From positions 1 through 64,000 of the forward strand of contig CANLWG010000022.1 in assembly GCA_947494715.1 (NCBI GenBank): a stretch of 64,000 nt of DNA. The letters run 5' to 3'. How positions within the stretch are numbered: the stretch's first letter is position 1; each line of letters opens with the position of its first letter. Below are positions 34,806 through 56,640 of the stretch, piece after piece. Made by a program: the position numbers and the translations under genes. The notes under the pieces are model-generated. The model had not been told where the DNA came from. It ran no database searches and saw nothing but the letters and a program-made list of their open reading frames with translations. The DNA comes from an uncultured Flavobacteriaceae bacterium. GTDB taxonomy: Bacteria > Bacteroidota > Bacteroidia > Flavobacteriales > Flavobacteriaceae.

Positions 34806-34808
34806 TTT

Positions 34809-35705: not shown

Positions 35706-35986
35706 AAACAGTTATATAGTATTGTTCTGATATGTTGGCATTTGATTTTTAAGTTGATGTCCACATTTGTGACCAAAATACTTAAAAATAATTAATAAAA
35801 GTAAATAAAAGATAATAAAAAGAAATCTTTAGTTTACTTTTTATCTGATTCTCAAAAAACCTACATTCAGAAACAGATTCCTTTATTTCGGAATGCACTT
35901 CGTCTAGTATTGGGCAAAATATTATCTTCAATCACTTGATATTCGATTTGCACAACAGCTATTAGTTGGCACTAAAACACTTATGA
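35706..35986. other. AT-rich spacer, probable promoter of the kinase/aminotransferase operon
   Basis: No gene. The segment 35770-35840 is very AT-rich with repeated aataaaa tracts. I could not find a perfect reverse-strand TAnnTTTG box. Confidence 0.3.
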
Positions 35987-37801
35987 TTAATCTGGCCCGA
36001 TATCACTTGAAAGCTGAAAGAAACCCTCAAAAGGCGGTACGGCGACTATTTTATGGGCTATTGTATTGTCCTCGTCCTGAAATATGTAAAAGTAGGTTTC
36101 AACATCGGTACTACCGGTAAAATCAACGGTTATAGTATTATTTTCATGCTTAAAGTTTTCAATTTTGGAAGTAGTATGGGCCCTGACAATTCTCAAGGCA
36201 TCATCTGTAAGCATGTACCAAGGTTCATAGCCGGCTAGAGCCTCGTTTATTTTTTTAAGTTCTTCCTCCCAGTTTTTGGGTTTTATCAGATAGATAAAAT
36301 CGGTTTCATGGGTAAATAGTGTGGCCAGTCCCAAACCATCCAAGGATCTGGTCAGTTGTTCCACAGCGCGATCTACCGTGGCTCCAACATCATTATCAGG
36401 CTCCCATTCATAACCCGTGACATCCCGGACAACCACACGGGAATTAAAAAATTCGTATCCTGAAAAATTGACAAAACCATTATAATATTCCGGCCTATCG
36501 CCCATCAAATCAGGATTTAGGCCTATCGTACCTTTTATACCATTTATGCGAAAAGGGCCACATTGAAGCCATGGTGTTTTATCTGACCAAGGGAGGTCGG
36601 GCTCCAGACCGATCCCCAAGAATTCTATGCCCCATTTCTCCTTTATATGTGGAAGTGCCTTGATTGCAATCTCACCATGATGGGGAACCAGATAATTTGA
36701 GATAGGCAGCGGTGCGTTGGCATCGTACCATTTGTCGACTGCCTCTAAATTTTCCTGCAATATATCGTCGGAAAAATTTTTTCTTTCTTGATGATTGTAG
36801 AAAATGAATTCATCATATTCCTTTGCACGATATTCCAGGGCATCAGGATAATAGTAGAAATCAATGTCAGCTGTTCGTGGCGGTCTTCCCAGAGCATGGG
36901 GCGAAGCGGTTCCTTTACCTTCCTTAATGATTTGTCGTAATTCTTGTATGCCATCGGGAGTAACATTGTAGATAAACAAGGACATCCAAGGTTTGAAACC
37001 ATATTTGTTTGCAATGTGCACCCAATAAAATGCACTTTCATTCCACAAATGGCCCCGGCCTGCCACATCGTCGACTCGCATGGTAACCAGAGGAGGTAGG
37101 CTCTGCATGACAAAAGGTTTTTTTGCCGCCCAAACCATGGAGCGCCACAGGCAGTCGTCCAATCCTGCCCAGGGTCCCAATATTTGTGGCCTAGCCCATC
37201 CCAAACTTGTCCATTGTACCACTTTTCCCGCTTCCTTCTCGAAGACCGCCAAAAGAGGTGCACCAGTTATGTTTATTAGGTTCTTGCCACTTTCATAGGA
37301 ATTATTGGCAATATTCAAAGCATTGAAAAGTCGCATTTTCTCGCCGGGTTTGTGCCATTCGGTAATATAGTGCTTCTCATTGGCGAAGTGGACACTATCA
37401 TTGCCAACCGACATGTTGGCCATGGATTTCGGCTTGTAAGGTATGGCCTCATCAAAACTTACTACTCCCGTACCGGATTGTATTTCCTTTTTTAAAAAAG
37501 CTTTCAACTGTTCACTTTCTTGATTGGCGCCATCAAGGAATTTCATATGTGAGATGATGATGAGGCTCCATTCACCTGTTATCTCCAATAATCTACTTCT
37601 ATTGATATCCTGAGCTACGTAAGGAATCCCAAAATGTTCCAGATATGGTACTAGCAGTTCTTCATGTTGATCCACTTCATTTGAGTTACTGTTATATAAT
37701 ACCAAAACCTGCTGTGTACCTGTAGTCGATTTTTTACAACTGAAGTTGAAACTTAAAATTGCGAGAAACAGAATAAACGTGTTCCGTGTTAATTGAATCA
37801 T
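35987..37801 (-). CDS. NodB/polysaccharide-deacetylase-like lipoprotein
   Basis: 604 residues. Lipoprotein signal ending ILSFNFSC. Residues about 35-240 look like a GATase/flavodoxin-like alpha/beta domain (QVLVLYNSNSNEVDQHEELL). The second half has TMRVDDVAGRGH, with the paired Asp typical of NodB motif 1, then SPHALGRPP and LVPHHGE as possible His metal motifs. This suggests a metal-dependent carbohydrate esterase or hydrolase acting in the periplasm on the glycan of this locus. The exact NodB second motif is altered, so enzyme activity is uncertain. Transcribed divergently from the GH28 genes. Confidence 0.55.
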   Translation of the reverse strand: MIQLTRNTFILFLAILSFNFSCKKSTTGTQQVLVLYNSNSNEVDQHEELLVPYLEHFGIPYVAQDINRSRLLEITGEWSLIIISHMKFLDGANQESEQLKAFLKKEIQSGTGVVSFDEAIPYKPKSMANMSVGNDSVHFANEKHYITEWHKPGEKMRLFNALNIANNSYESGKNLINITGAPLLAVFEKEAGKVVQWTSLGWARPQILGPWAGLDDCLWRSMVWAAKKPFVMQSLPPLVTMRVDDVAGRGHLWNESAFYWVHIANKYGFKPWMSLFIYNVTPDGIQELRQIIKEGKGTASPHALGRPPRTADIDFYYYPDALEYRAKEYDEFIFYNHQERKNFSDDILQENLEAVDKWYDANAPLPISNYLVPHHGEIAIKALPHIKEKWGIEFLGIGLEPDLPWSDKTPWLQCGPFRINGIKGTIGLNPDLMGDRPEYYNGFVNFSGYEFFNSRVVVRDVTGYEWEPDNDVGATVDRAVEQLTRSLDGLGLATLFTHETDFIYLIKPKNWEEELKKINEALAGYEPWYMLTDDALRIVRAHTTSKIENFKHENNTITVDFTGSTDVETYFYIFQDEDNTIAHKIVAVPPFEGFFQLSSDIGPD

Positions 37802-38228
37802 GGATAATATTTTTGTTCGTCAACATTTCTTAAACTGGCACATTTGGAATTCTTTGCCTTACAACTTCCCCTATTTTACAAATTAGTATGCATTACACGT
37901 GGCGCAGTGCACAAAAGCGCAAGTGATTTTTCGAAAATAGAATTTTTCTTTTGTTTTTGAAAATTTTTGTTTCTTTTCGTATATATTTGTTTTTAAGCTA
38001 TTCGAAGATTAGAGACTCTGGAAAAGCTTCTTTGAAATTTTAGGATTCCAAAAGGACAGTAATAGTATAAGTTCAATAAATTCATTCTTTTATTGCAGGA
38101 AGGTTCAATCCCTTGAGACCCGCTAATGTTATTTGCTGAACATTGATAATACACAACATAATTGGTGTCTTCATCAGAATAGAAGTCCATCCGCAATGGA
38201 AATAAAGTGAATTCAAAAAAGTATTGAC
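37802..38228 (+). promoter_or_regulatory. Divergent promoter region of the glycan locus
   Basis: 427 bases between the divergent deacetylase-like and GH28-like genes. A perfect -7 box TATATTTG lies at 37982-37989 on the plus strand, preceded by several TTTG tracts, so the rightward transcript would have a leader of about 230 bases. No known riboswitch was recognised in that leader. No perfect box was found for the leftward gene. Confidence 0.45.
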
Positions 38229-39935
38229 ATGAAAAAAAAGTATCATAAAGCAATTTTTAGTATCGCCTTTTTTTTACAGTCCTGTTTCGTTTTCTCCCAA
38301 AACGTGAACTATAATATCAGGGATTATGGTGCGAAAGGAGATGGAACTACCATGAATACGATTGCCATACAAAATGCAATTGATGAATGCCATCAAAATG
38401 GCGGGGGAGTTGTAGTTGTTCCGGCAGGTAAATATCTATCAGGGCCCATCTATTTAAAAAGTAACATTAATCTGTATTTGGCTCCAGGTTCCTTAATCAT
38501 AGGTAGCGGAAAATTAGACGATTATCGACTGGAGTTGGACGGGATGATCGGAGATCAAAAAAATACTCTGGGAAGTATTAATACAGGGGAAAAGACAATT
38601 AGCGGAGAATCGGATAGAACAGGTTTGGTAACAGCTTTTAATGCCAATAATGTATCCATTTCCGGACAGGGAATTATCGATGGCAATGCCATGGCCTTTC
38701 ATGACAAGAACAAAATGCATTGGGGCAAGGAAGGTGCGGCATACAAGAATACGCGACAAGGGGATGTCTATAAAGATCCCAAGTTTGCCTTGCACGATCC
38801 CCTAGCACATGATGAACGCCCGGGAAATCTTATCCGACTCATCAATTGTGTGGATGCACGCGTTAATGATGTTACCTTTCAAAACTCACCTACCTGGACC
38901 TTTCAAATCCAATCGTGTGAAAACGTTACGGTTTCGGGAATCAGGGTCAATAGTTTTGAAAGTAACCTGAGGGTGCCTAATGATGACGGAATCAATATAC
39001 AATCCTCTACTCTAGTCCGTATCTCCGATAGCGATATTCATACCGGAGACGACTGTATTGCCAATTTCAATGTAAAAAAACTAACGGTAACGAATTGCAC
39101 TTTATCTTCAAGATCATCCGCTATCCGTGTTGGGGATACCCGCGGGGATGTAGAAGACCTTACCTTTTCCAACCTGATTATTTATTCTGCCAATAGAGCC
39201 CTGGGGGTTTACGTTCGAGCATCAGGTTCTGTCTCCAATGTTCTGTTTTCCGACATTATTATTAAGAATCAATTATTCACCGGTCATTGGTGGGGCCAGG
39301 GAGAGCCGATACATGTATCCGCACTTCCATCGAACTTTTTTGGGTTCGAGGAAAAATTGGGGACAATTTCAAATGTTCGGTTCAAGAATATTATTGCCGA
39401 AACCCAAAATGGCGCCATCGTATATGGAAGTGAAGAAAGTATCATTAAAGATGTGTCCTTTGAAAATGTGAAACTGATTATCAACGATAGCCCCATAAAT
39501 GATCAGTTTGGTGGGAATTTTGATCTTAGGCATACTACGGAAATGGAACAAGCCCTTTTTGCCCACGAAATCCCTGGAATTTTTACCAGGTATACGGATG
39601 GCCTCGAGCTCATCGATTTCAGCGTGGAATGGAAAGAAGATTTACCCGAGTTTTTTACCAATGCCATTCATTGTGAAGAATTCAATGATCTTACCATAGA
39701 TGGATTCAAGGGCCAATCCCGAAATCCCACATTACACCCATCAATATCCCTTAAGGATGGTAGAGAGGTTACCATACGAAACAGTAAGGCCACAAAGGGC
39801 ACCGTAAACTTTTTGAAGCACAATAATATTTCCGATTACCGATTGTTTGGCGGGAATGATCTTTCCGACGCGAAAAAGGCATTCGTTCCCGAAACTACCG
39901 GATTCGCGATGTGTGGGAACTTAATGCCTAAATAG
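38229..39935 (+). CDS. GH28-like right-handed beta-helix protein 1
   Basis: 568 residues, signal peptide ending SCFVFSQ, then the polygalacturonase/pectin-lyase fold: YNIRDYGAKGDGTTMNT, LYLKSNINLYLAPGS, and NDDGINI ... TGDDCIANF, which keep three acidic residues of the GH28 catalytic triad. The family's GHG motif is replaced by SRSSAIRVG and the RIK motif by LGVYVRA. The loop at 530-660 (MHWGKEGAAYKN) adds extra residues. Likely a periplasmic hydrolase of galacturonan-type or other uronate chains; the changed motifs leave activity open. Confidence 0.8.
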   Translation: MKKKYHKAIFSIAFFLQSCFVFSQNVNYNIRDYGAKGDGTTMNTIAIQNAIDECHQNGGGVVVVPAGKYLSGPIYLKSNINLYLAPGSLIIGSGKLDDYRLELDGMIGDQKNTLGSINTGEKTISGESDRTGLVTAFNANNVSISGQGIIDGNAMAFHDKNKMHWGKEGAAYKNTRQGDVYKDPKFALHDPLAHDERPGNLIRLINCVDARVNDVTFQNSPTWTFQIQSCENVTVSGIRVNSFESNLRVPNDDGINIQSSTLVRISDSDIHTGDDCIANFNVKKLTVTNCTLSSRSSAIRVGDTRGDVEDLTFSNLIIYSANRALGVYVRASGSVSNVLFSDIIIKNQLFTGHWWGQGEPIHVSALPSNFFGFEEKLGTISNVRFKNIIAETQNGAIVYGSEESIIKDVSFENVKLIINDSPINDQFGGNFDLRHTTEMEQALFAHEIPGIFTRYTDGLELIDFSVEWKEDLPEFFTNAIHCEEFNDLTIDGFKGQSRNPTLHPSISLKDGREVTIRNSKATKGTVNFLKHNNISDYRLFGGNDLSDAKKAFVPETTGFAMCGNLMPK

Positions 39936-39984
39936 ATTATGGATTTTACTACAAAAAATTTTTCAAGTCAATATAGAAGCTAAG

Positions 39985-41739
39985 GTGCTATTTTCAAAAT
40001 TCACTTTTCAATGTCTTATTAAGAAGATAGTGATTGTAAACAGCTTTCTATTCTTTTTAATTTTTCAATCGCAACTGCTGTATCCACAAAATAAGGAATA
40101 CAATATTGCCACATACGGGGACGTAAACGATGGTCTTACAATGGCTACACAGGCCATTCAGGCCGCTATTGATGATTGCCATAAGGATGGTGGTGGAATC
40201 GTAGTTGTCCCACCGGGGGAGTATATTTCCGCTCCTATTTATTTAAAGAGCAATATTACTTTATATCTGGCTCCTGGAGCAGTACTTAAGGGGAGTAGAA
40301 ATTTGAAAGACTACCGTCTCGAATTGGATGGAATGATCGGCAATCAAAAAAACACTTTAAAAAATACGATCAATACTGGAGAGCGAACCATTAGCGGAGA
40401 ATCGGATAGGGCCGGGCTTATCACGGCCTACAATGCCAATAATATATCCATAATTGGGGAAGGTATCGTTGACGGCAATGCAATGGCCTATCATGATGAA
40501 AATAAAATGCATTGGGGAGGAGATAGGGAGGCCAATACCTTTACAAATACCCGACAGGGGAAAGATTATGTGAATCCAAAATATAACGTTCATGGCCCGT
40601 TGGCCCATGGTGAACGCCCAGGTAATTTAGTCAGGTTGATCAATTGTGAAGATGTCAGGGTACGGGATATTACGTTTCAAAATTCTCCAACTTGGACATT
40701 CCAGATAAATACCTGTAAGAATGTTACCATTTCAGGAATCAGGATCAACAGTTTTGCGAGCGACTTGAAAATCCCCAATGACGATGGTATCAATATTCAA
40801 GCTTCTACACTTGTGCGTATTTCGGATAGCGATATCCGTACCGGAGATGATGCAATTGCAGTTTTTGATGTCACCAAACTCGTAGTTACAAATTGTTCGC
40901 TTTCATCACGATCTGCCGCAGTGCGAATCGGTGATACGGGTATGGGCAGGGTGACGGAAGATTGTATTTTTAAAAACATAATCATATATGCTTCCAACAG
41001 GGCATTGGGTGTATTTCTACGAAGGGCGGGATCTATATCAAACGTGCTTTTTTCCGATATCATAATTAAAAACCAATTGTTTACGGGACACTGGTGGGGG
41101 CAGGGAGAGCCCATACATGTCTCCGCACTTCCGTACGATGAAAATGGCACAATTGCAAAATTCGGGACTATTTCCAATGTTCGTTTTAAAAATATTATTG
41201 CTGAATCCCAACATGGGGCCGTGGTCTACGGTTGTCCAGAAAGTATTATCAAAAATGTGTCTTTCAGCAATGTAAAGCTGTTTATAAAAAACAGTCCGAT
41301 CAATGAACAGTTTGGGGGAAACTTTGATTTTAGATATACGACACGAATAGATCCCGCACTTTTCGCCCATGATATTCCAGCAGTTTTTACCCGATATACC
41401 TATGGGTTGGAATTAAAGGATATCAGGGTGAAATGGGCCAAGAATTTGCCGGATTTTTTTACGAACGCCATTCACTGTGAAGAATTTACCGACCTTACTA
41501 TTGATGGTTTCAAGGGCATAGGGAACAATCCTACCCTTTACCCTACGCTATCATTAGTAAACGGAAAGGGATTGACTGTCAAAAATAGCAAAGCCTTGAG
41601 GGGTACAATGCATTTTTTGGAACATAGTAACGTGAAGGAACATCTAGTATTCAGCGGAAACGACCTTTTAAATGCAAAAAAAACCTTTACCCCTTCTTCA
41701 TCCAACTTTACCATGTTCGGGAACATTTTATCCGAATAA
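39985..41739 (+). CDS. GH28-like right-handed beta-helix protein 2
   Basis: 584 residues from GTG 39985; a second GTG at 40030 is an alternative start. Signal peptide NSFLFFLIFQSQLLYPQ. Close tandem paralogue of the preceding gene over its full length, with PNDDGINIQ and TGDDAIAVF acidic motifs and the same replacement of GHG (SRSAAVRIGDTG) and RIK (LGVFLRRAG). Duplicates with retained open frames suggest distinct bond specificities in one glycan. Confidence 0.8.
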   Translation: MLFSKFTFQCLIKKIVIVNSFLFFLIFQSQLLYPQNKEYNIATYGDVNDGLTMATQAIQAAIDDCHKDGGGIVVVPPGEYISAPIYLKSNITLYLAPGAVLKGSRNLKDYRLELDGMIGNQKNTLKNTINTGERTISGESDRAGLITAYNANNISIIGEGIVDGNAMAYHDENKMHWGGDREANTFTNTRQGKDYVNPKYNVHGPLAHGERPGNLVRLINCEDVRVRDITFQNSPTWTFQINTCKNVTISGIRINSFASDLKIPNDDGINIQASTLVRISDSDIRTGDDAIAVFDVTKLVVTNCSLSSRSAAVRIGDTGMGRVTEDCIFKNIIIYASNRALGVFLRRAGSISNVLFSDIIIKNQLFTGHWWGQGEPIHVSALPYDENGTIAKFGTISNVRFKNIIAESQHGAVVYGCPESIIKNVSFSNVKLFIKNSPINEQFGGNFDFRYTTRIDPALFAHDIPAVFTRYTYGLELKDIRVKWAKNLPDFFTNAIHCEEFTDLTIDGFKGIGNNPTLYPTLSLVNGKGLTVKNSKALRGTMHFLEHSNVKEHLVFSGNDLLNAKKTFTPSSSNFTMFGNILSE

Positions 41740-41804
41740 AAAGCTCCTATGCCAAAAGACTTATAGAAGAGCATAACAAATTGAAACAACTAAACAGCCA
41801 TCCA

Positions 41805-44795
41805 ATGAAAAATTATCGAATAGTCCGGGTATGTTTTATGCTAATGACGACTTTTATTTTTTCCCAAAATAATGAAGGCATATATATTCCCGTCCCTAAG
41901 GAAGTTTCCGGGGTTTCAAACCCAAAGGTAAGTTTGAACGGGCAATGGAAGTTTTCCTTGGAACCACCCATCAATTTTTGGGAGAAAGGAATTAACCTTT
42001 CGTCATGGGATGCTATTATGGTTCCAGGGGAGATACGGACGCAGGGGTTTGCCATTGAACATGATAGGGAAGTTGCTTATAGAAAGGACATAGAGATACC
42101 TGAGGATTTTAAAGGCAAGTCCATTTTACTCCGTTTCGATGGTGTTTATAACTATGCCCGGGTATGGGTGAACGGCAATTTTGTAAAGGAACATTATGGG
42201 GGCTTCACCACTTGGTATTGTGATATTACAAAATGGGTCAAGGCCGGAAAAACAGTCACCGTAACATTGGGCGTAACCGATCGTGAAAATGACATTTCAA
42301 TGGCCAGCGGTTATGCCAAACATGTAATTGGAGGAATTATTCGGGATGTCTACGTTTTGGCACTACCGAAGACGTACATCAATGGCATCAAAATAGATAC
42401 CGATTTTGACGAAAATTATAAGAATGCCGAGCTGGTCTTGCAACTTTCCGGGCATTTTGATAAAGTCAAAAATGTAGAAGTACAAATTGAACTTTTCTCA
42501 CCGGAAGGTATCCCCGTAAAACTTCCGTATGATAATATCGCCATATCCAAAGAAGAAAATCCGGTTACCAAAAGAATTGGAGTTACTTCGCCCAAAAAAT
42601 GGGATGCCGAACATCCCAATCTATATACGCTGAACCTAAATGTTCTTGCCAACGGTAAGGTTTTGGAAAAAATCTCAAAAAAAATCGGTTTTAGGGAAAT
42701 AATGCAAAGCGGAAAAAACCTGTTCGTAAATCGAAAGGAGATAAAATTGCGGGGCGCGAACCATCATTCCACACACCCATTGACCGGAAGGACGGTCACC
42801 AGGGAATTGGAAAAAACCGATGTCCTACTAGCCAAGGAAGCCAATATGAATTTTCTACGAACCTCCCATTATCCTCCTACCCATGCCTTTTTGGATTACT
42901 GTGACGAATATGGTATTTATGTTGAGGACGAATCCGCAGTAACCTTTGTAGATGTAAATCATCATGCGACACAAGATAACCCTAAGTTCGCAGATAGATA
43001 TTTAGGTCAATTAAAGGAGATGGTGTGGGCGCATTACAACCACCCCTCTGTACTTATGTGGTCCATTGCCAATGAAAGTGTATATGGCTCCAATTTTCAA
43101 TTGTGCTATGATTGGTTAAAACAAATGGACAAGACGCGCCCTGTGGCCTTTAGCTATCCCAGCACCGTAAAAGGTAATACGGCCTATGACATTATAAGTA
43201 TCCATTATCCACATTTTGACCAAATTTCCAATAGTATTGAAGGTCTTTTTGACCCCAAGCTAAAAAAACGGGTTCCCTATGTCCGTGAAAATCTTCCGGT
43301 ATTGTATGACGAGTGGGCGCATGTTCCCACGTACAATGCGGAAACGATAAAGGAAGACCCCAACGTCAGAAACTTTTGGGGCCATAGCATCCAGGCCATG
43401 TGGGATCAAAGTTTTAACGAAAACGGTGTGCTGGGCGGAGCCATATGGTGTATGGTAGATGACGTGTTCTTGCTGCCTAAAACCGAAAAAGATGCCTCAC
43501 AAAGAATTTCCAAATTCGGAACTGGCGAATGGGGCATCGTGGATGCATGGAGAAGAAAAAAGCCTGAATTTTGGCATACCCGTAAGGGATATTCCCCCAT
43601 AAAAATTTTGGACAGGGAATTCGAAATTCAGGAAACAAAATCGACACTGCAAATTGCCGTGCAAAACCGTTTTGACCATACCAATTTCAATGAACTGGTC
43701 ATCAAATGGAAGGTAGGGGAAAAATCCAGCCAATTACAAAACATCGACATCCCTCCACATTCTTTTGGAATACTTGGCATTCCCGAGCAGGATTGGGGAC
43801 CAAACGATAGCCTTGAACTTAAATTCTATAAAAATGACAATTTGGTCGACGAGTTTAGATTAAATATAAACCCCAAGGAAACGTTGAAGGATCAAGATAG
43901 GGAATATAAGGAAGCCGCGCCCAAGATTGTAGACAATGGTACGGAACTTACAGTGAGCTCGGGTAATTTTAAATTGGTCATTGATAAATCGAAAGGTTTA
44001 ATTTCCGAAGGCAGCTATTATGGGAGCCGGGTAATTATGAGTGGGCCCCATCTTCAACTCTCCCCGATTGAACTCAAGGAATGGACATTAAAAAATCTGA
44101 ATTATCAGAAAAGGGAGCATGAAGTGCTGGTGCACATTTCGGGAAGTTACGATTCCATAAACGTAAATTACCATTTATCCATTAAAGGAAATGGAACCCT
44201 GATTACGGAGTTTGAAATTGAAAATCCTCCGCCTCCACCTCCCAATGGTGATGAATGGTGGCCAAAAGAAGGGTATAAGGAAGTAGGTGTGGCTTACGTA
44301 TTGGATGGATCGATCAATCTCAATTCTTGGGAAAGAAGGGCATTATGGACCGTTTATCCGGAAAATCATATGGGAAGAATTCAAGGAACGGCTAGAAGAA
44401 TCAGTAAAGCGACTAAAGAAGTGATACGAGAAAAACCTGATTGGGCATACGAAATGGACATGCAAAATGTATACGCCAATAAAGGAACTGCAGTACCTTT
44501 TGGCGCATCCAATGACTTTAGGGGAACCAAGGAAAACATTTACAGGTCCTCTGTATATTCGTCCGTTACCAATTCCGGTGTAACCGTGGAATCCGATGGC
44601 GATTTGGCCGTCAGGCTAAAGGCTGCAACCATGGAAACGGATTCACCGATAAAAATGTATATAAACACTTTATGGGACTACCCTGCCCTTGGATGGGGTT
44701 GTTACATGAAGGAAGCGATAGAACTACCCAATAATTATAAAGAAAAAGTTGTTATAAAGGCTTTTAAAAGAAGGGATGTGAATGTCCAAAAATAA
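41805..44795 (+). CDS. Glycoside hydrolase family 2 enzyme
   Basis: 996 residues from ATG 41805, which places the start at a signal peptide (IVRVCFMLMTTFIFSQ). GH2 architecture: sugar-binding jelly-roll domain (about 30-190), immunoglobulin-like domain, TIM barrel with LRGANHHSTHP, general acid/base Glu in SIANESVYG and nucleophile Glu in LYDEWAHV, plus a long C-terminal beta-sandwich. Specificity (beta-galactosidase, glucuronidase or galacturonidase) cannot be fixed. 66 bases after GH28-like 2 and 9 bases before the gamma-glutamyltransferase gene, so one operon. Confidence 0.9.
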   Translation: MKNYRIVRVCFMLMTTFIFSQNNEGIYIPVPKEVSGVSNPKVSLNGQWKFSLEPPINFWEKGINLSSWDAIMVPGEIRTQGFAIEHDREVAYRKDIEIPEDFKGKSILLRFDGVYNYARVWVNGNFVKEHYGGFTTWYCDITKWVKAGKTVTVTLGVTDRENDISMASGYAKHVIGGIIRDVYVLALPKTYINGIKIDTDFDENYKNAELVLQLSGHFDKVKNVEVQIELFSPEGIPVKLPYDNIAISKEENPVTKRIGVTSPKKWDAEHPNLYTLNLNVLANGKVLEKISKKIGFREIMQSGKNLFVNRKEIKLRGANHHSTHPLTGRTVTRELEKTDVLLAKEANMNFLRTSHYPPTHAFLDYCDEYGIYVEDESAVTFVDVNHHATQDNPKFADRYLGQLKEMVWAHYNHPSVLMWSIANESVYGSNFQLCYDWLKQMDKTRPVAFSYPSTVKGNTAYDIISIHYPHFDQISNSIEGLFDPKLKKRVPYVRENLPVLYDEWAHVPTYNAETIKEDPNVRNFWGHSIQAMWDQSFNENGVLGGAIWCMVDDVFLLPKTEKDASQRISKFGTGEWGIVDAWRRKKPEFWHTRKGYSPIKILDREFEIQETKSTLQIAVQNRFDHTNFNELVIKWKVGEKSSQLQNIDIPPHSFGILGIPEQDWGPNDSLELKFYKNDNLVDEFRLNINPKETLKDQDREYKEAAPKIVDNGTELTVSSGNFKLVIDKSKGLISEGSYYGSRVIMSGPHLQLSPIELKEWTLKNLNYQKREHEVLVHISGSYDSINVNYHLSIKGNGTLITEFEIENPPPPPPNGDEWWPKEGYKEVGVAYVLDGSINLNSWERRALWTVYPENHMGRIQGTARRISKATKEVIREKPDWAYEMDMQNVYANKGTAVPFGASNDFRGTKENIYRSSVYSSVTNSGVTVESDGDLAVRLKAATMETDSPIKMYINTLWDYPALGWGCYMKEAIELPNNYKEKVVIKAFKRRDVNVQK

Positions 44796-44803
44796 TACGC
44801 AAA

Positions 44804-46486
44804 GTGAAAAAACTGTTTTTATTGTTGGTATTCTTAGGGTCATTTGCCCGTCCCCAGGATAGGATTTCCGGTTCAAATAGCGTAAGTCGATCTGTGGTTT
44901 TGGCCCAAAATGGCATGGCATGTACTTCCCAGCCCTTGGCAACACAGGCAGCATTGGATATTCTAAAACAAGGAGGAAGTGCCATTGATGCGGCCATAGC
45001 GGCCAATGCGGTCAATTCCGTCGTTGAACCTGCTAATTGTGGTATAGGCGGAGACTTGTTTGCCATTGTATGGGATGCCAAGACCAAAAAACTATATGGG
45101 CTCAATGCCAGTGGTAAATCTCCTAAATCCTTGACCTTGGAAGCCATGAAAAAGATGGGGCACACCAAGGTGCCATTTTTTGGTCCTTTGGCGGTTTCGG
45201 TTCCCGGTTGTGTGGATGGCTGGGCAGAACTTCACGGAAAATTTGGAAAGCTGCCCTTTGAAAAACTATTCGATTTGGCGATCGGATATGCCGAAAACGG
45301 TTTTCCGGTAACGGAAATTATAGCCCATGAGTGGAAGGCCAATGCCGATTATTTTCCTGAAAATAGTGATTTTGAAAGGGTTTTTGTCAAGGATGGAAAA
45401 ACTCCCGCCCAAGGTGAGGTTTTCAAAAACCAGGCTTTGGCGAATTCCTTGAAACAGATTGCCAAAGGTGGGCGGGATGCCTTTTATAATGGAAAGATTG
45501 CAAAAGAAATAGAAGTCTATATGGCGAATAATGGAGGATATTTAAAAGCCTCCGACCTAAAAGAACACAGATCGGAATGGGTAGAACCGGTGTCCACCAA
45601 TTACAGAGGTTACGATCTTTGGGAACTTCCGCCGAACGGGCAGGGTATTGCCGCCCTGCAGATGTTGAACATTCTTGAAGAATACGACATTAAAAGCATG
45701 GGGTATGGCAGTCCCGAATATCTCCATCTACTGATAGAAGCAAAAAAAATGGCCTTTGAGGACAGGGCCAAGTACTATGCGGATCCCAATTTCAATAAAA
45801 TCCCTGTAGAGGAATTAATTTCCAAGGAATATGCGGCCAAAAGAAGAAAACTAATCGATTCCAATAAAGCAGCGGAAGAATATGCACCGGGAGTTTTAGA
45901 GTCAGGTGAAACCATTTACTTGACAGTAGCCGATAAAGAGGGAAATATGATCAGTTTAATACAAAGTCTCTTCAATGGATTTGGATCCACCGTGACCCCT
46001 CCCAAGCTGGGCTTTCCTTTGCAAAACAGGGGTGAACTTTTCACCTTTGAGGAAGGTCATTTTAATAAGTATGAGCCTGGGAAAAGGCCATTTCATACCA
46101 TAATACCCGCCTTCGTCACAAAAGATGGTGAGCCGTTCATGAGCTATGGGGTTATGGGTGGGGCCATGCAACCACAAGGCCATGTACAAATATTGATCAA
46201 CATGGTCGATTTTGGAATGAACATTCAGGAGGCAGGAGATGTGCCACGCATTCGCCATTCCGGATCCTCGCAACCTACAGGTTCAAGAATGGAATCTGGT
46301 GGCATCGTTAATTTTGAACATGGCTTTGAACAGGAAACCCTCAGAGGGCTTGTTCAAAAAGGCCATTTTATGAAATTTAGTGTTGGAGGCTTCGGGGGCT
46401 ATCAGGCCATCATGTACGATTCAAAAAACAAAGTCTACCACGGGGCATCGGAGTCGAGATTGGACGGTCAGGCATCAGGTTATTGA
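44804..46486 (+). CDS. Gamma-glutamyltransferase homologue
   Basis: 560 residues, N-terminal signal peptide, Ntn-hydrolase fold. GGT features: GMACTSQPLATQAAL, GGSAIDAAIAANA, the large/small subunit junction and NALDTT-equivalent GETIYLTVADKEGN in which the Thr after GE aligns with the autocatalytic nucleophile of E. coli GGT; the following Thr-His are Ile-Tyr here. The glycine-rich GGFGGYQAIM tail is present. GGTs cleave gamma-glutamyl amides or transfer them; within a glycan operon it may remove amide-linked amino acids from sugar acids. Activity unproven because of the altered motif. Confidence 0.8.
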   Translation: MKKLFLLLVFLGSFARPQDRISGSNSVSRSVVLAQNGMACTSQPLATQAALDILKQGGSAIDAAIAANAVNSVVEPANCGIGGDLFAIVWDAKTKKLYGLNASGKSPKSLTLEAMKKMGHTKVPFFGPLAVSVPGCVDGWAELHGKFGKLPFEKLFDLAIGYAENGFPVTEIIAHEWKANADYFPENSDFERVFVKDGKTPAQGEVFKNQALANSLKQIAKGGRDAFYNGKIAKEIEVYMANNGGYLKASDLKEHRSEWVEPVSTNYRGYDLWELPPNGQGIAALQMLNILEEYDIKSMGYGSPEYLHLLIEAKKMAFEDRAKYYADPNFNKIPVEELISKEYAAKRRKLIDSNKAAEEYAPGVLESGETIYLTVADKEGNMISLIQSLFNGFGSTVTPPKLGFPLQNRGELFTFEEGHFNKYEPGKRPFHTIIPAFVTKDGEPFMSYGVMGGAMQPQGHVQILINMVDFGMNIQEAGDVPRIRHSGSSQPTGSRMESGGIVNFEHGFEQETLRGLVQKGHFMKFSVGGFGGYQAIMYDSKNKVYHGASESRLDGQASGY

Positions 46487-46516
46487 TCGGTCGAAATCTA
46501 CAAATCCCATGATTCT

Positions 46517-47917
46517 ATGAAAACAAAACGCCAATCCTTTTACAACTCATATGGAATAACGCTCATTGCATTGCTAACCTTACTCCTTACATACAATTGC
46601 AAGCCGTACAACAAAGACCTGAATCAAACCATAAGGGAACATATAGAAAATATTAAGGTGATAAGCACCCATGAGCATCAACTGGATCCTTCCAAACATG
46701 GGATAAAAACAATAAGCTTTTTTGAACAGTTGAAAAGTAGTTACTTATATGATGACCTCATATCAGCAGGAGCGAGTAGAAATAGTACTGCGGAAAAAAA
46801 CCTGGATTCGGATTCGTTGTGGAACTATTACGAGCCATTTTTGAATAGTACCCGTACAACTAGCTACTACCGGCAATTGATCAAGGGGTATCAAAAGCTG
46901 TATGATTTTGAAGGGCCTTATTTTACAAAGGACAATGTCTCAAAACTCAATGAACAATTAGCGGAGAACTACAACAACTACGACTCCTGGTTCAACAAAG
47001 CTTTTGAACTTTCCGGGTTTGATCTAATGTTAGTGGACCAATATTGGAATCCATATGAATTAGATCGTAATACCGGGCAATTTGCATTGGCATCGCAAGT
47101 AAACCAAATGATAATGGCACCACTTTTTAAGGAAAAAGTTCCACCAGAATATTCCTGGATTCATACGGATTATTGGAAAATGGCAAAAAGCCACAACTTC
47201 TCAATGCAAACATTGGAGGAATATTTGACTTTTTCCAATTTTGTGTTTGAAAACTATTTCGCAAAGAATTCCGTTTGTCTCAAAAACTCACAGGGCTACG
47301 ATAGATCTTTGTATTTTGAGGAAGTGTCTTTTGAGGAAGCTGCCGAACTATATCTTAAGGAGCCATCGACCCACACCGAGAGTGAAAAGAAAAAGTTGAT
47401 GGATTTTATGTTTCATTGGATCATCCAAAAAGCCATTCAATACGACATTCCAATCCAAATTCACACCGGATATTTAGCCGGTACGGGAAGGGTTCTGGAA
47501 AATAGCCGGCCATCGCTCTTAAACAATCTATTTATCAAATATCCAAAGGCTAAATTCATTCTTTTTCACGGCGGATATCCATATACTTCCGAATGGATAG
47601 CCTTGGGGAAGATGTTCCCAAATGTTTACCTAGATTTTAGCTGGTTGCCCCAAATATCCCAAATAGTTGCGAAGCGGGTATTGGAAGAATGTTTGGACAC
47701 CGTGCCTTACAACAAAATCCTCTGGGGCGGTGATGAGGTGTATATCGAAGGTTCTGTCGGAGCCCTTGAACTAACTAAGGAAGTTATTGCCGAAGTTCTT
47801 ATAGCCCGAGTAAAAAGAGGCTCACTGACTGTTGATATGGCACTTCTAATAGCCGATCATATTTTCAGAAACAACGCAATTCTACTTTTAGATCTAGAAT
47901 ATAATTTGACCGAATAA
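46517..47917 (+). CDS. Amidohydrolase-superfamily (amidohydrolase_2) lipoprotein
   Basis: 466 residues. Lipoprotein-like signal ending LLTYNC. TIM-barrel metal hydrolase signature: STHEHQ (HxH on strand 1), IQIHTGY (strand 5 His), LFHGGYP (strand 6 His) and WGGDE (strand 8 Asp). Members include decarboxylases, glucuronate-isomerase-like enzymes and amidases; the long insert at about 40-180 resembles the uronate isomerase group. Follows the GGT gene by 30 bases in the rightward operon. Confidence 0.75.
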   Translation: MKTKRQSFYNSYGITLIALLTLLLTYNCKPYNKDLNQTIREHIENIKVISTHEHQLDPSKHGIKTISFFEQLKSSYLYDDLISAGASRNSTAEKNLDSDSLWNYYEPFLNSTRTTSYYRQLIKGYQKLYDFEGPYFTKDNVSKLNEQLAENYNNYDSWFNKAFELSGFDLMLVDQYWNPYELDRNTGQFALASQVNQMIMAPLFKEKVPPEYSWIHTDYWKMAKSHNFSMQTLEEYLTFSNFVFENYFAKNSVCLKNSQGYDRSLYFEEVSFEEAAELYLKEPSTHTESEKKKLMDFMFHWIIQKAIQYDIPIQIHTGYLAGTGRVLENSRPSLLNNLFIKYPKAKFILFHGGYPYTSEWIALGKMFPNVYLDFSWLPQISQIVAKRVLEECLDTVPYNKILWGGDEVYIEGSVGALELTKEVIAEVLIARVKRGSLTVDMALLIADHIFRNNAILLLDLEYNLTE

Positions 47918-47992
47918 AGAGTATTTATTCCATAATTCGAATAATCAAAACTTCATAATCAATAATTATTTTTTTCTTTTTATTTTCTTTTT

Positions 47993-48023
47993 TTTGTTAT
48001 TATTGCTTTTTTTTATTACTTTG
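47993..48023 (+). promoter_or_regulatory. Promoter of the susC-susD pair
   Basis: TTTG at 47993-47996 and TTACTTTG at 48016-48023 (one mismatch from TAnnTTTG) are 19 bases apart, the usual Bacteroidota spacing, within a T-rich tract after the amidohydrolase gene. The susC start follows 25 bases later. Confidence 0.55.
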
Positions 48024-48048
48024 AAAGACTAACTTAAACATAACCAAT

Positions 48049-51000
48049 ATGAAAATTACTCTTTTGAAAAAAATTGTGATGGTTCTCACAGTTTTTGCGT
48101 CCATCAATTTATGGGGGCAGGATGGCAGTGTAACAGGAATCGTTACCGATTCCGACGGCGTACCCCTTCCAGGAGCGAGTGTGGTAGTTAAAGGAACTTC
48201 CACCGGTACCCAAACCGATTTCGATGGTAACTTCGCCATCAATGCTGATTCCAATGCCACCTTGATCTTCAGTTATGTGGGTTTTGCCACGCAGGAAATC
48301 CCCGTTAATGCTCAATCCTCTATTAACGTTTCCCTAATGGCAGATGCGGCGGCACTGGATGAGGTGGTCGTTTTGGGGTATGCCACCCAAACCAGGGGGG
48401 ATCTTACCGGAGCTGTATCCTCTGTGGATATCTCCGAAGCTACCAAGGCACCAATCGTAAATGCGGCTGAGGCTCTCGAAGGTAGGGTTTCCGGGGTCAG
48501 TGTAGTCAATAATGCCCAACCAGGTGGGGCTCCGACCGTACGTATCAGGGGTTTTGGAACTAGTAATAGTAATAATCCATTATATATTATAGATGGTATC
48601 CAAACGGATGATCCATCTATATTGAACAGTATCAACCCGGCCGACATTGATCAGATGAACGTCTTAAAGGATGGAGCGGCAGCTATTTATGGGGCAAGGG
48701 CATCCAATGGGGTAGTGATTATCACTACCAAAGGTGGGGGCTATTACATGGATAAGCCAAGGGTTTCCCTTGAAATGTATACCGGTTTTTCGCGTGCACA
48801 AAACTTACCCGACCTATTAAATCCCCAACAATTCGGGGACGTAATCTGGGAAAGCCTACAAAATGACGGCGTACCTATAGAGCATCCACAATTTGGCAAT
48901 GGGCCGACTCCCGTAGTTCCAAGTCAATTACAGGGTGTACCAGCTAGTGTCACGGTACGTCCAGAAGGGACCAAATGGTTGGAAGAGCTTTATAGGACCG
49001 CGGTTACCTCAAATATTTCCGCGACCATACAAAACGGAACGGAAAGTGGCAAATATCTTTTGTCCATGGGCTATCTGAACAGGCAAGGTATACAGTTGGG
49101 CACAGGGTTCAAAAGAGGGGCTACCCGGCTGAATTCCGAATTCAAGATTTCCGATAGGATCACTGTCGGCCAGCACCTTAACATTTCCTTTTCAAATACC
49201 AAGGGAGATGGTACTAGTAGGGTTCAGGGAGCAATGATAATCAACCCTTTGATACCGGTTTACGATGATGATGGTGAATTTGCCGGTACATATTTGGCAG
49301 GAGCCCAATTGGGCAACTCACGTAATCCTGTAGCCCAAACGTTACGGTCCGCTGATGACTATCGCAAATCACTCCGGGTTTTCGGTGATGTTTACGCCCA
49401 GCTCCAAATTCTCGATGGATTAAGTTTTAAAACCTCCATAGGAGGTGATATACAGGCCTATAATGATAGAAGGTTTCAGCCTTTGGATCCCGAAAATGCA
49501 GAATCGCGAGCCTCCGCACAGTTGGACGAGGAGGACTTTGACCGTTACGAATGGGTATGGAACAATACCTTGAACTATAACAAAAGTTTTGGTGAACATT
49601 CCATTAATGCCCTGGTGGGTATCGAAGCCTTAAGTTTTCGTAGAAGAGGCAAGGATATCAGAAGAACCGACTTTTTGTTCGAGACCCCTGATTTTTATCT
49701 GTTGAGCACGGGAACGGGTACACCCATTGTCGATGACGGTTACGATGAACAATCCTCCCTGTTCTCCATTTTCGGTACGGCAAATTATTCCTACGCCGAC
49801 AAATACCTTCTCACCGCTACGGTCCGCCGGGACAAATCCTCACGATTTAGGGGCGATAACCAAAGTGATATATTTCCATCCTTCAGTGCAGGTTGGGTCG
49901 TTAGCAACGAGGACTTCTTTCCACAGGATGCTCTTGTAAGTAGGTTAAAACTTTACGGTTCATGGGGACAATTGGGCAATCAGTCGCTACCTTCGGATAA
50001 CCCTACGGTAAATATTTCCGAGCTTGGTGAGACTTTCGCAAATTATTCGTTTGATGGAGGCAACTCGATTAGAACAGGAGCTTTTCTAAGTCAGGTGGGC
50101 AACCCAGATCTTCGATGGGAGACCAGTGAATCTACCAACATAGGAGTTGAATTTGGACTCTTTGACAATAAACTTTCATTGAATGCAGAGTATTTTGATA
50201 TAGTTACCAAGGATCTGATTTCCAGGGATAATAGTTTGATAAGCACTACCGCTATCGACGCCGAGGCACCCTTGGTCAACTTGGGGTCTTTTAAGAATAC
50301 CGGTATGGATTTGAGCATTGGATATCAAAACACTACTAAAGGTGGATTTTCCTATGGAATACAGGCGAATATCTCGCATTATAAGAACGAGGTGACCGAA
50401 CTGATCAGTGATTTCCAAATAGGTTGGCCAGACTTTAGGGGGGGTGCCGTTACCCGCACCGCCGTGGGACAGCCTCTATCCTCTTTCTTTGGACGTGTGG
50501 TAGAAGGTATTTTCGCAACAGAAGCAGAGGTTTCGGCCCACGCCGATCAAGGATTTGAAAATCCGGCAGATGGCATAGGAAGATTTAAATATACGGATGT
50601 AAATGGCGATGGTTCCATCAACGATGACGATAGAACCTTTATCGGTTCACCCCATCCCGACTTTACCTATGGCGTCAACTTTAATTTTGCATATAAGGGA
50701 TTTGACCTTTCGGCATTTTTTGCCGGTTCCCAAGGGAATGATATCTACAATTACACCAAGATCTTCACGGATATGCCCAGTTTTTCCAATACCCAACGTA
50801 GTGTTCGTGTTTTGGACTCTTGGAGGCCCGATAACCTTGATGCCACAATCCCGAGGTTAAGTTTTGCGGTACCGAACAACGAGACCCAACCCAACTCTTT
50901 CTTTGTGGAGGACGGTTCGTTCATGCGCCTGAAGAACCTACAGATAGGCTACACCCTCTCAGATAGTATCGTGAATAAGTTAGGCTTGGATACTTTACGG

Positions 51001-51165
51001 TTCTATGTCCAGGGATCTAACCTGTTTACCATTACCGGGTATGATGGTATTGACCCTGAACTTGGCCCAAGGGATAATGGAAACGACAACCTTACCATTG
51101 GTGTGGACAACCAACAGTATCCTTTAGCAGCAATATACACTTTAGGTCTTAACTTAAATTTCTAA
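48049..51165 (+). CDS. SusC/RagA-type TonB-dependent outer-membrane transporter
   Basis: 1038 residues. Signal peptide, then a carboxypeptidase-D-like regulatory domain (GIVTDSDGVPLPGASVVVKGTSTGT, about 25-100), TonB-box-like ALDEVVVLGYATQ, plug domain (ALEGRVSGVSVVNNAQPGG, YIIDG) and the 22-strand barrel ending LNLNF with a terminal aromatic. It forms a lid-and-barrel importer with SusD for oligosaccharides. No STN domain is seen, so no direct anti-sigma signalling. Confidence 0.95.
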   Translation: MKITLLKKIVMVLTVFASINLWGQDGSVTGIVTDSDGVPLPGASVVVKGTSTGTQTDFDGNFAINADSNATLIFSYVGFATQEIPVNAQSSINVSLMADAAALDEVVVLGYATQTRGDLTGAVSSVDISEATKAPIVNAAEALEGRVSGVSVVNNAQPGGAPTVRIRGFGTSNSNNPLYIIDGIQTDDPSILNSINPADIDQMNVLKDGAAAIYGARASNGVVIITTKGGGYYMDKPRVSLEMYTGFSRAQNLPDLLNPQQFGDVIWESLQNDGVPIEHPQFGNGPTPVVPSQLQGVPASVTVRPEGTKWLEELYRTAVTSNISATIQNGTESGKYLLSMGYLNRQGIQLGTGFKRGATRLNSEFKISDRITVGQHLNISFSNTKGDGTSRVQGAMIINPLIPVYDDDGEFAGTYLAGAQLGNSRNPVAQTLRSADDYRKSLRVFGDVYAQLQILDGLSFKTSIGGDIQAYNDRRFQPLDPENAESRASAQLDEEDFDRYEWVWNNTLNYNKSFGEHSINALVGIEALSFRRRGKDIRRTDFLFETPDFYLLSTGTGTPIVDDGYDEQSSLFSIFGTANYSYADKYLLTATVRRDKSSRFRGDNQSDIFPSFSAGWVVSNEDFFPQDALVSRLKLYGSWGQLGNQSLPSDNPTVNISELGETFANYSFDGGNSIRTGAFLSQVGNPDLRWETSESTNIGVEFGLFDNKLSLNAEYFDIVTKDLISRDNSLISTTAIDAEAPLVNLGSFKNTGMDLSIGYQNTTKGGFSYGIQANISHYKNEVTELISDFQIGWPDFRGGAVTRTAVGQPLSSFFGRVVEGIFATEAEVSAHADQGFENPADGIGRFKYTDVNGDGSINDDDRTFIGSPHPDFTYGVNFNFAYKGFDLSAFFAGSQGNDIYNYTKIFTDMPSFSNTQRSVRVLDSWRPDNLDATIPRLSFAVPNNETQPNSFFVEDGSFMRLKNLQIGYTLSDSIVNKLGLDTLRFYVQGSNLFTITGYDGIDPELGPRDNGNDNLTIGVDNQQYPLAAIYTLGLNLNF

Positions 51166-51169
51166 AAAA

Positions 51170-52930
51170 ATGAAAAAGAGATTATTTACTTACACAACGC
51201 TATTTATAGTTTTGCTAGCCTGTAGCGATGATTTTACGGAGATAGCCCCGGTCGGTGCTCTGGCAGATGAGGCACTTGCCAACGAGACCGGGGTCGACCT
51301 ATTGCTAACGGGTGCCTATTCCGCCCTGGATGGTATTAGAAACAATCAAGGTGCCCCGGATTGGGCAGTTTCCGGTGATAACTGGTGGTTCGACGTGATT
51401 TCGGATGATGCCCACAAAGGGAGTACGGATGGTGACCAGCCTGATCTATTTGCACTGGAAATTTTCGATTGGGCCACTGCCAATCCTTATATTTTTGGAA
51501 AATGGAATGGCTTGTATGCAGGGGTAAACAGGGCCAACGCCGTAATTTCATTGATTAACTCCAGTGAGGAAGGTGACCTTACGGCAAAATTGGCCGAAGC
51601 TCGATTTTTAAGAGGTCATTTCAATTTTGAGCTTCAAAAGATTTACGGAAACCCTGCCTATATATCCGATGAAAATTATGCTGCGACTGAATTCAATCAG
51701 CCAAATCCAGGACCAATATGGGAACAGATAGAGGCCGATTTTCAATTTGCCATTGATAATCTGCCCGCAAGCCAAGATGATGATGGGCGGCCCGATTCAT
51801 GGACCGCCAAGGCCTTTTTGGGCAAGGCCCATTTGTTCCAAGCCGATTGGGCACCGGCCTTGGCTTTGCTGAAAGATGTTATAGACAATGGTCCTTACGC
51901 CCTAAACACGGAGTTTGTGGACAACTTTAACGCTGCAGGAGAAAATGGACCGGAATCTGTTTTTGCCATTCAGTTTGCCGCAGATGACGGCCAGTCCTTC
52001 AATGGTAACCGGGGCGGAACGCTCAATTTTCCAGGAGGTGGTCCATTTAATCCTGAAACCTGTTGTGGTTTTTATCAGCCTACGCAGGATTTGGCCAATG
52101 CATACAAGACCGACGGTAGTGGTCTGCCCTTGTTGGACACCTTCAATCAAAGTGATATCGCCAACGATGCCGGCGTAGATACGAATGACACGGCGTATGA
52201 CGCGGACACCAAAACGTATGACCCAAGTCTTGACCCTTTTGTCACCGAACAGGGTCCTCTTGATCCCAGACTGGACTATACCGTAGGTCGTAGAAAAATT
52301 GACTATAACGGTTTTGGAGCTCATCCAGGTAAAATTTGGATTCGAGCCACTTTTGGCGACATCTCCGGGCCTTACTTGCCCAAAAAGAATGTCTATCAAG
52401 CAGGTGAGTTGGGCAACAATCAAGGAACTGGTGCGTGGGGTGAACAACGCTCGGGCATCAACTACAACATCATGCGATTTGCCGATGTGTTGTTGATGGC
52501 AGCAGAGGCCGCAGTAGAAACCAATGATTTGGTCTTGGCCTTGGATTATGTGAACCGAGTTAGGAACAGGGCGAAGAATATGACCTATGTACAGGCACGC
52601 GGTGCTGAGGACGAGGTCATAGAGGGAACCCCTGCCGCCGACTATCAAATTGAACCTTATGCATCCTTTGCCAGTCAGGACTTTGCCAGAAAGGCGGTAC
52701 GTTTTGAGCGTCGTCTGGAACTAGGTATGGAAGGTCATCGGTTATTCGACCTTAGAAGATGGGGCGTAGCGCTGGAAACTATAAATACCTATGCGGAGAA
52801 CGAGGCTCGTACCATACCCAATTTTGGTGACAAGTTTAGGGCCTACGAACCCAAGCATGACTTATTGCCCCTTCCGCTGAACGCCATAGATTTAAGTGGT
52901 GGAATCTTGAATCAGAATGATGGATTTTAA
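51170..52930 (+). CDS. SusD/RagB-type glycan-binding lipoprotein
   Basis: 586 residues, surface lipoprotein with signal ending IVLLACS. SusD-like N-terminal TPR region (FLRGHFNFELQKIYGN) and C-terminal RagB segment (FERRLELGMEGHRLFDLRRWG), both typical. It starts 5 bases after susC and is followed by a strong terminator, so the pair forms a transcript end. Confidence 0.93.
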   Translation: MKKRLFTYTTLFIVLLACSDDFTEIAPVGALADEALANETGVDLLLTGAYSALDGIRNNQGAPDWAVSGDNWWFDVISDDAHKGSTDGDQPDLFALEIFDWATANPYIFGKWNGLYAGVNRANAVISLINSSEEGDLTAKLAEARFLRGHFNFELQKIYGNPAYISDENYAATEFNQPNPGPIWEQIEADFQFAIDNLPASQDDDGRPDSWTAKAFLGKAHLFQADWAPALALLKDVIDNGPYALNTEFVDNFNAAGENGPESVFAIQFAADDGQSFNGNRGGTLNFPGGGPFNPETCCGFYQPTQDLANAYKTDGSGLPLLDTFNQSDIANDAGVDTNDTAYDADTKTYDPSLDPFVTEQGPLDPRLDYTVGRRKIDYNGFGAHPGKIWIRATFGDISGPYLPKKNVYQAGELGNNQGTGAWGEQRSGINYNIMRFADVLLMAAEAAVETNDLVLALDYVNRVRNRAKNMTYVQARGAEDEVIEGTPAADYQIEPYASFASQDFARKAVRFERRLELGMEGHRLFDLRRWGVALETINTYAENEARTIPNFGDKFRAYEPKHDLLPLPLNAIDLSGGILNQNDGF

Positions 52931-52965
52931 AATTTAGTTGAGTTAGTTTGTTAGTTTATTTTTAA

Positions 52966-53000
52966 GGCAGGACACCCGTTGCGGTATCCTGCCTTTCATT
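52966..53000 (+). terminator. Rho-independent terminator after susD
   Basis: Stem arms ggcaggacacc (52966-52976) and ggtatcctgcc (52983-52993) pair with one mismatch across a 6-base loop and are followed by tttcattt. It lies 36 bases after the susD stop. Confidence 0.8.
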
Positions 53001-53207
53001 TAATCTTTATTGATTATGTAATACAAGGTGGCTTTGGTTTAGTACAAAGTCCAGTTATGAAGGCATACAACCAAATAGAAAAGCCTTCAAAAAAGCTATA
53101 CTAAAAATAATAGACTGCATGGCAGGCTTAACTTGATAAATCTAAAATCGCCTTTTAAAATCGAAAGGGCTGTATCTATTGTTTAACTTTATAGTATATG
53201 AGGTAAA

Positions 53208-56537: not shown

Positions 56538-56640
56538 ATATTTGCTTTTGAGTTTTTTCATTTTAATACGACATTAATCTAGTCGAATTTCAAATCCGAA
56601 GTTAGGGCATGCTTTTAATTCATCATAAACTTTAGACACT

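Follow-up and report, generated by a model that had tools for sequence, protein, structure and literature searches.

A polysaccharide utilization locus with a GGT-family hydrolase and a FluG-type metallohydrolase in a marine Flavobacteriaceae genome: a possible route for removing amide-linked groups from an acidic glycan

GH28 enzymes, as far as known, act on uronates or rhamnogalacturonan, and GH28 polygalacturonases usually carry GHG and RIK motifs. We know of no described route by which amide groups are taken off glycans during degradation. For marine bacteria, PMC3210612 reports glycans that are aminoacylated or amidated, among them the Microbulbifer capsule, a homopolymer of a galactosaminuronic acid amide with D-alanine, and polymers of Colwellia are decorated with threonine or alanine, the bond type being unnamed in the available portion of PMC5852497. 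The Microbulbifer example bears out the statement, made in a preliminary description of the DNA studied here, that aminoacylated uronates are known in marine bacterial polysaccharides. Here we analyse a polysaccharide utilization locus (PUL) in a stretch of 64,000 nucleotides from an uncultured Flavobacteriaceae bacterium (assembly GCA_947494715.1, contig CANLWG010000022.1, positions 1 to 64,000 of the forward strand; the whole stretch is called the window). In this locus a gene of the gamma-glutamyltransferase (GGT) family, encoding an N-terminal nucleophile (Ntn) hydrolase, and a gene for a metallohydrolase stand between glycosidase genes and a susC-susD pair. The genes form a tight run on the + strand, window positions 38229-52930, with gaps of 4-131 bases:

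38229..39935, + strand: GH28-like enzyme a (GH28a), PF00295 E=2.4e-20, signal peptide by eye
39985..41739, + strand: GH28-like enzyme b (GH28b), PF00295 E=7.4e-21
41805..44795 from ATG (TTG at 41781 possible), + strand: GH2 glycosidase of the LacZ/glucuronidase type, PF02836 (GH2_C) E=3e-43
44804..46486, GTG start, + strand: GGT-family Ntn hydrolase, PF01019 E=3.9e-159, TIGR00066 above cut-off
46517..47917, + strand: metallohydrolase of the 2QPX/FluG-N type (Amidohydro_2), PF04909 E=2.4e-15, lipoprotein by eye
48049..51165, + strand: SusC-like TonB-dependent transporter, TIGR04056 E=1.6e-260
51170..52930, + strand: SusD-like lipoprotein, PF07980 E=4.9e-45

As expected of a SusCD-type PUL, susC adjoins susD, and two GH28 genes and one GH2 gene lie in the same run. 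The gaps amount to 49 bases between the two GH28-like genes, 41 (TTG start) or 65 (ATG start) before the GH2 gene, 8 between GH2 and the GGT-family gene, 30 before the metallohydrolase gene, 131 before susC and 4 between susC and susD. Most products of the run have N-termini with a signal peptide or lipobox, features that were judged by eye throughout. The preliminary description had reported one rightward operon upstream of SusCD; its order, strand, coordinates and short gaps are right, and the family matches are far beyond chance. All the genes it listed are present, but there are two GH28-like genes instead of one, both before its start at 41805, and 131 bases separate the metallohydrolase gene from susC.

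The GGT-family protein passes PF01019 and the NCBI gamma-glutamyltransferase equivalog TIGR00066 (432.9 bits versus a cut-off of 357.85), and its N-terminus resembles a signal peptide by eye. Its nucleophile, Thr370, aligns with residue 1 of the mature small chains of solved GGT-family enzymes. The best solved relative is 2NLZ (454.5 bits), with E. coli GGT (2e0w) at 260.5 bits. In the E. coli enzyme we take R114, N411, D433, S462 and S463 to bind the alpha-carboxylate and alpha-amine of gamma-glutamate. According to the alignment these places are changed in the window protein (R114 to S, N411 to F, D433 to L and S462-S463 to H-T; E. coli numbering), while a classical paralogue of the same genome (L001) keeps R, N, D, S and S. 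The Thr nucleophile of classical GGT is thus present and its gamma-glutamate-binding residues are absent. Instead, the small chain holds the motifs QNRG, [FY]HT and MGG..QPQ in common with 2NLZ and 5HFT, and by these motifs, which replace the gamma-Glu pocket, it belongs to a 2NLZ/5HFT-like group, a grouping made in this analysis. The PDB labels 2NLZ a cephalosporin acylase and 5HFT a gamma-glutamyltranspeptidase. We take 5HFT to be HpxW, an oxamate amidohydrolase; a literature search on the oxamate enzyme gave nothing. Since the small chain agrees with 2NLZ and 5HFT and the gamma-Glu pocket is changed, the protein most likely hydrolyses an amide other than a gamma-glutamyl one. Its pocket residues are not those of the classical gamma-glutamyltransferase for which it had initially been taken, even though it passes TIGR00066.

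For the metallohydrolase, PF04909 covers only part of the protein, and the Pfam scan lists no UxaC match beside it. In the amidohydrolase superfamily the lysine of the binuclear centre speaks for a hydrolase rather than an isomerase. We aligned 17 proteins, the window's own and those of 16 of the 24 loci in which the species collection holds the family, leaving out the near-identical copy of Ulvibacterium marinum, fragments and L022, which has a stop codon. H52, H54, K256, Y261, H316, H351 and D406 are invariant in all 17. They match the residues published as contacting metal or substrate in 2QPX, i.e. H17, H19, K166, Y171, H227, H263 and D317 (PMC6478659, available portion); for the Lys, the Tyr, the two later His and the Asp this correspondence is directly visible. 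The protein therefore has the full 2QPX/FluG-N signature of H-x-H, a Lys to be carbamylated, Tyr, two His and Asp, and because it carries these seven residues it is likely to be a hydrolase. For its AlphaFold model (predicted local distance difference test, pLDDT, 89) the best structural matches are 4i6v (Z 36.2) and 2qpx (Z 35.0), followed by uronate isomerases at Z 27.3-30.6 (379-417 residues, 12-15% identity) and other amidohydrolases at Z ≤20.2. The same portion of PMC6478659 gives no known activity for the 2QPX enzyme and assigns FluG to a pathway in which one intermediate is gamma-glutamylated. Amide cleavage by the window protein is plausible but not established, and the name amidohydrolase alone is no proof of it, because uronate isomerases have the same fold.

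The two GH28-like proteins are 68% identical to each other and both match the GH28 profile PF00295. Each is hit by five NCBIfam function models, every one below its cut-off. The GHG and RIK motifs are not found in GH28a, which has SRSSAIRVG and GVYVR instead; nine aligned relatives also lack GHG. For the GH2 protein none of 11 NCBIfam models reaches its cut-off, and the nearest PDB chains are named beta-galactosidase.

Based on the position of the two hydrolase genes in the run, their catalytic residues and the company of glycosidases, we tentatively read the locus, with a probability of roughly 0.4, as a PUL for an acidic glycan carrying amide-linked groups, in which the GGT-family amidase and the metallohydrolase strip the decoration. 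Export and co-expression of the products, amide cleavage on the glycan, the identity of that glycan and the role of the neighbouring divergent operon are what we infer here. SusCD would take up oligosaccharides, which exported GH28-like enzymes and the GH2 enzyme would trim in the periplasm. The GGT-family Ntn amidase, with a pocket that no longer fits gamma-glutamate, would remove an amide-linked group so that the glycosidases can proceed; from a uronic acid amide it might be ammonia or an amino acid, from an amino sugar an acyl group. A second bond in this decoration, whether amide, ester or lactone, might be cleaved by the metallohydrolase. The sugars would then enter via the sodium:solute symporter (SSF) and be handled by the DegT aminotransferase, the RmlD-like reductase and the galactokinase-like kinase of the divergent operon. 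Amide-linked amino acids in the substrate had been suggested on the grounds of peptidase-type amide cleavage beside polysaccharide hydrolases; both proteins do keep the catalytic residues of hydrolases, but the amide might equally be part of an amino sugar or a peptide, and nothing ties it to a uronate. It is a reasonable inference that amides are hydrolysed on a glycan, for which an aminoacylated uronate is one candidate among several.

SusD is followed after 277 bases by an FG-GAP/UnbV gene and after a further 205 by a DeoR-family gene, and the divergent run on the - strand starts on the other side of GH28a:

53208..56537, + strand: FG-GAP / UnbV-ASPIC protein, PF13517 E=5e-73, PF07593 E=2e-19
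56743..57504, + strand: DeoR-family regulator, PF00455 E=2.3e-46; best model AgaR NF040755, 181.8 of 260 bits, below cut-off
35987..37801, - strand: P0001, no family assigned, 604 aa, lipoprotein by eye; no Pfam match at E 0.001, DUF2194 weak at E=0.0059, below cut-off
34809..35705, - strand: RmlD-like reductase, PF04321 E=1.3e-55; TIGR01214 below cut-off
33591..34805, - strand: DegT-family sugar aminotransferase dependent on pyridoxal phosphate (PLP), PF01041 E=3e-107
32311..33594, - strand: galactokinase-like GHMP kinase, PF00288 and PF10509; galactokinase models below cut-off
30604..32187, - strand: SSF sodium:solute symporter, PF00474 E=2e-54; TIGR00813 above cut-off
28155..57555, no strand: segment of 29.4 kb common to Ulvibacterium marinum, 97.9% DNA identity, abrupt ends on both sides

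In the DegT protein the motif FHQQKNMSTLGEGG keeps the aminotransferase Lys. A search with the kinase gave matches in at least 7 of 247 phylum genomes at E ≤1e-60, its own included, and no common aminotransferase-reductase-kinase set in six loci. P0001 is present in the U. marinum locus L108; it found only itself among 249 family genomes, a draw from which U. marinum was absent, and 116 phylum genomes, and its structure model (pLDDT 35) is useless. Next to the symporter gene, a gene at 29549-30554 (- strand) is broken over three frames, possibly by an assembly error. It is intact in U. marinum (L108:7220-8230, 336 aa), where the product weakly matches xylose-isomerase-like TIM barrels. Beyond the DeoR-family gene, 58056-59579 encodes a GH3-superfamily (auxin-conjugase-like) protein related to the lyso-ornithine lipid synthetase OlsH, below the cut-off of that model.

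We then asked how often these families occur together. The whole-genome searches scored the best few candidates per genome (three in the GH28a searches of family and phylum and in the GGT search), and the tallies are lower bounds. Neighbourhoods were annotated using the proteins of the window as phmmer queries, an approach that may miss distant SusD or GH relatives, and some stretches end at contig ends (e.g. L123, L126, L141, L152, L153). At E ≤1e-80, GH28a is found in at least 2 of 397 family genomes, those of the window and of U. marinum (G558), 99% identical, with no match in G402 of the same genus. At E ≤1e-60 it is found in at least 13 of 395 phylum genomes, its own included, with at best 45% identity outside the genus. 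Eight GH28 contexts (L099, L101-L107) hold no close GGT homologue; GH2 is matched in two of them (L104, L107) and SusD in one (L101). On L102, a GH28 of 40% identity and a distant GGT-family gene (77 bits) at the contig end lie 5.6 kb apart with other genes between, which was not counted as a recurrence.

The metallohydrolase is found in at least 4 of 196 order genomes, namely its own, one at 29% identity and two weak matches. Among the 24 loci of the species collection the PUL is seen in one, that of U. marinum; the other 23, several of them short fragments, have no GGT, GH28, SusC or SusD match, and a GH2 match in two. In L023 and L034 a GH2 gene lies directly upstream of the metallohydrolase relative. 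GGT homologues at E ≤1e-120 number at least 53 in 49 of 397 family genomes. We read 52 of their surroundings (all but the window's own), one being the U. marinum PUL. None of the 51 others has a SusD, GH28, GH2 or metallohydrolase match or a detectable SusCD pair. They include a SusC match in two (L148, 243 bits, ~3.7 kb away; L095, 61 bits, opposite strand), a weak FG-GAP match in five, weak RmlD and GHMP matches in two and an SSF match in two. Peptidases make up 2/10 of the annotated neighbours in one set of GGT relatives (M24 and M1, both in L083), 2/10 in another (M14 and M20, both in L147) and 3/10 of those of metallohydrolase relatives (M3, S9, S9), and we counted them in favour of a PUL for an amide-decorated glycan. 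A Sortilin-Vps10/BNR protein of ~1000 aa lies near another GGT-family homologue in L009, L083, L087 and L088, and such a protein also lies near the metallohydrolase relative in L025.

The segment shared with U. marinum contains both the run with SusCD and the divergent operon, which we counted in favour of the same reading. Its identity is uneven, from 87% to 99.9% per kb, and the match stops on both sides, the U. marinum contig having been read 10 kb past the left break and holding ~216 bases past the right one. In a single house-keeping region taken as control, that around the other GGT, the two species are 85-87% identical, a value for this one region and not for the genomes. Because the segment is so much more similar than the control region, a recent exchange of both operons between the two species is most likely, and the U. 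marinum copy is therefore weak independent evidence. Silent and replacement changes number 33/8 in GH28a, 7/1 in SusC, 17/0 in SusD and 16/5 in DegT, i.e. they are mostly silent. The PUL GGT falls, in a maximum-likelihood tree with 56 rows, into a set of ten (100/99), in which the PUL pair and two others share a weakly supported branch (88/45). It does not join the genus's other GGT (L009, L092, L133), of which it was considered as a recent copy. No empty site could be named in the third genus member, G402, in which the gene flanking the segment on the right has a best match of only 34% identity. Co-occurrence of GH28, GGT, amidohydrolase and SusCD in other genomes, proposed earlier as a check, is thus seen in one genome, U. 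marinum, and in none of the other contexts read from the metallohydrolase, GH28 and GGT sides. Nor is the GGT gene missing from the locus in this only relative found, which is a weak test with a nearly identical copy that looks recently exchanged.

Several features near the segment ends are recorded here. A phage-integrase-family gene (L108:10857-12110) lies ~1.2 kb outside the left segment end in U. marinum, and IS110-type and DUF772 transposase genes lie at window 18017-19912, ~8 kb left of the segment. The ten letters AAGACTCGAA occur at 28171-28180, just inside the left end, and at 57574-57583, just outside the right end, which could be chance. Their reverse complement recalls a tRNA T-arm; no tRNA genes were found in the window.

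A number of results weigh against a PUL for an amide-decorated glycan. The TIGR00066 match speaks against a changed specificity of the GGT-family protein. Its non-classical pocket features are no adaptation to the PUL, because 31 close non-PUL homologues in the alignment carry them as well, with QNRG or QDRG. Special to the PUL copy are few changes, nine positions at which ≥95% of 51 homologues agree on another residue; the loop IQSLFNGFGS occurs in two sequences only, both PUL copies, and SGK replacing SGR also in homologues of G297 and G312. Between the window and U. marinum the GGT gene shows 0 silent and 3 replacement changes, too few to judge selection. The pairing is known from two genomes with nearly identical copies, and when neighbours within 6 kb of the metallohydrolase relatives were clustered, no family recurred in more than 3 of 24 loci. 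As all GH28 function models stay below cut-off, a uronate in the glycan is unsure. Finally, a scan against a Bacteroidota promoter consensus gave 6 sites in the window (simulated mean 9.3), and the promoter-like site ahead of GH28a is without value, since 11% of the intergenic stretches simulated contain one by chance too.

It is possible, although we consider it somewhat unlikely, that the GGT-family enzyme and the metallohydrolase came into the PUL as hydrolases for house-keeping or peptide scavenging and act on peptides or small amides instead of the glycan. The occurrence of GGT homologues in at least 49 of 397 family genomes, with 0/51 contexts outside the PUL showing a SusD, GH28, GH2 or metallohydrolase match, would fit this, as would the M24, M1, M14 and M20 peptidases near some GGT relatives and the S9 and M3 peptidases near metallohydrolase relatives. 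However, both genes sit in the middle of the run with gaps of 8 and 30 bases, both lie inside a segment nearly unchanged in a second species, and the PUL copy stands apart from the genus's other GGT copy in the tree. Peptides also enter into a reading that we regard as decidedly improbable, an ordinary pectin- or rhamnogalacturonan-type PUL with a lactonase, esterase or isomerase-like metallohydrolase and a GGT-family enzyme whose target is the peptide moiety of a glycoprotein from plants or algae. PULs of this type do contain GH28 and GH2, NCBIfam models of the rhamnogalacturonan enzymes BT4146, BT4153, BT4155 and BT4156 are matched, if below cut-off, and the metallohydrolase fold is also close to uronate isomerases (Z 27-31). 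Yet the ten annotated proteins include no pectate lyase, rhamnosidase or carbohydrate esterase, the GHG motif usual in GH28 is missing from the GH28 proteins, and the metallohydrolase has the binuclear-centre lysine and no UxaC match.

The amide may also be located on an amino sugar rather than a uronate: exported hydrolases would free the amine, the SSF symporter would import the sugar, DegT would deaminate it, the RmlD-like enzyme would reduce the keto sugar and the GHMP kinase would phosphorylate it. The DegT, RmlD-like, GHMP and SSF genes indeed form one divergent run in the same shared segment, AgaR comes out as the best model for the regulator without reaching its cut-off, and marine bacterial amino sugars N-acylated with amino acids are reported in the available portion of PMC3210612. 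The six loci of kinase relatives, one ending at a contig end, show no DegT, RmlD or SSF match. DegT enzymes, moreover, are best known from biosynthesis, and the usual GH28 substrates argue for a uronate. We hold this explanation to be quite unlikely as a whole, but the variant suggested by the divergent operon is equally worth testing. A broader version of the PUL for an amide-decorated glycan is doubtful: the segment may be a mobile, self-contained module in which the GGT-family Ntn amidase and the FluG-type metallohydrolase strip amide groups in the periplasm, and in which the transporter, aminotransferase, reductase and kinase make up a new route for amino sugars or uronates. If so, the enzyme would be the first described GGT-family PUL enzyme, as far as the literature searched on GGT and PUL goes.

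The earlier remark that no described locus pairs these families agrees with our literature search for the GGT name with PUL terms, which found no such locus; PMC11669647 has the word GGT in its reference list only. Searches on amide-linked marine uronates, on PUL with amidohydrolase and GH28, and on Ulvibacterium marinum found nothing, and the available portion of PMC9912281 holds nothing on the subject. If both hydrolases do remove amides, they would add two new types of enzyme to glycan breakdown and could serve as a marker by which organisms consuming amide-decorated polymers are found.

Compared with known systems, the locus shares with Bacteroidota SusCD-type PULs the SusC-SusD pair, the GH28 and GH2 enzymes and a nearby regulator gene, and differs from them in holding a GGT-family Ntn hydrolase and a 2QPX-type metallohydrolase. 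The GGT-family protein resembles 2NLZ and 5HFT in its small-chain motifs, whereas its place in a PUL, its loop and the SGK sequence set it apart. Similarly, the metallohydrolase has the metal-binding residues and fold of 2QPX and the N-terminal half of FluG but is, by eye, a lipoprotein encoded beside glycosidases. With UxaC it has the fold in common, while the low sequence identity, the binuclear-centre Lys and the Pfam result distinguish the two.

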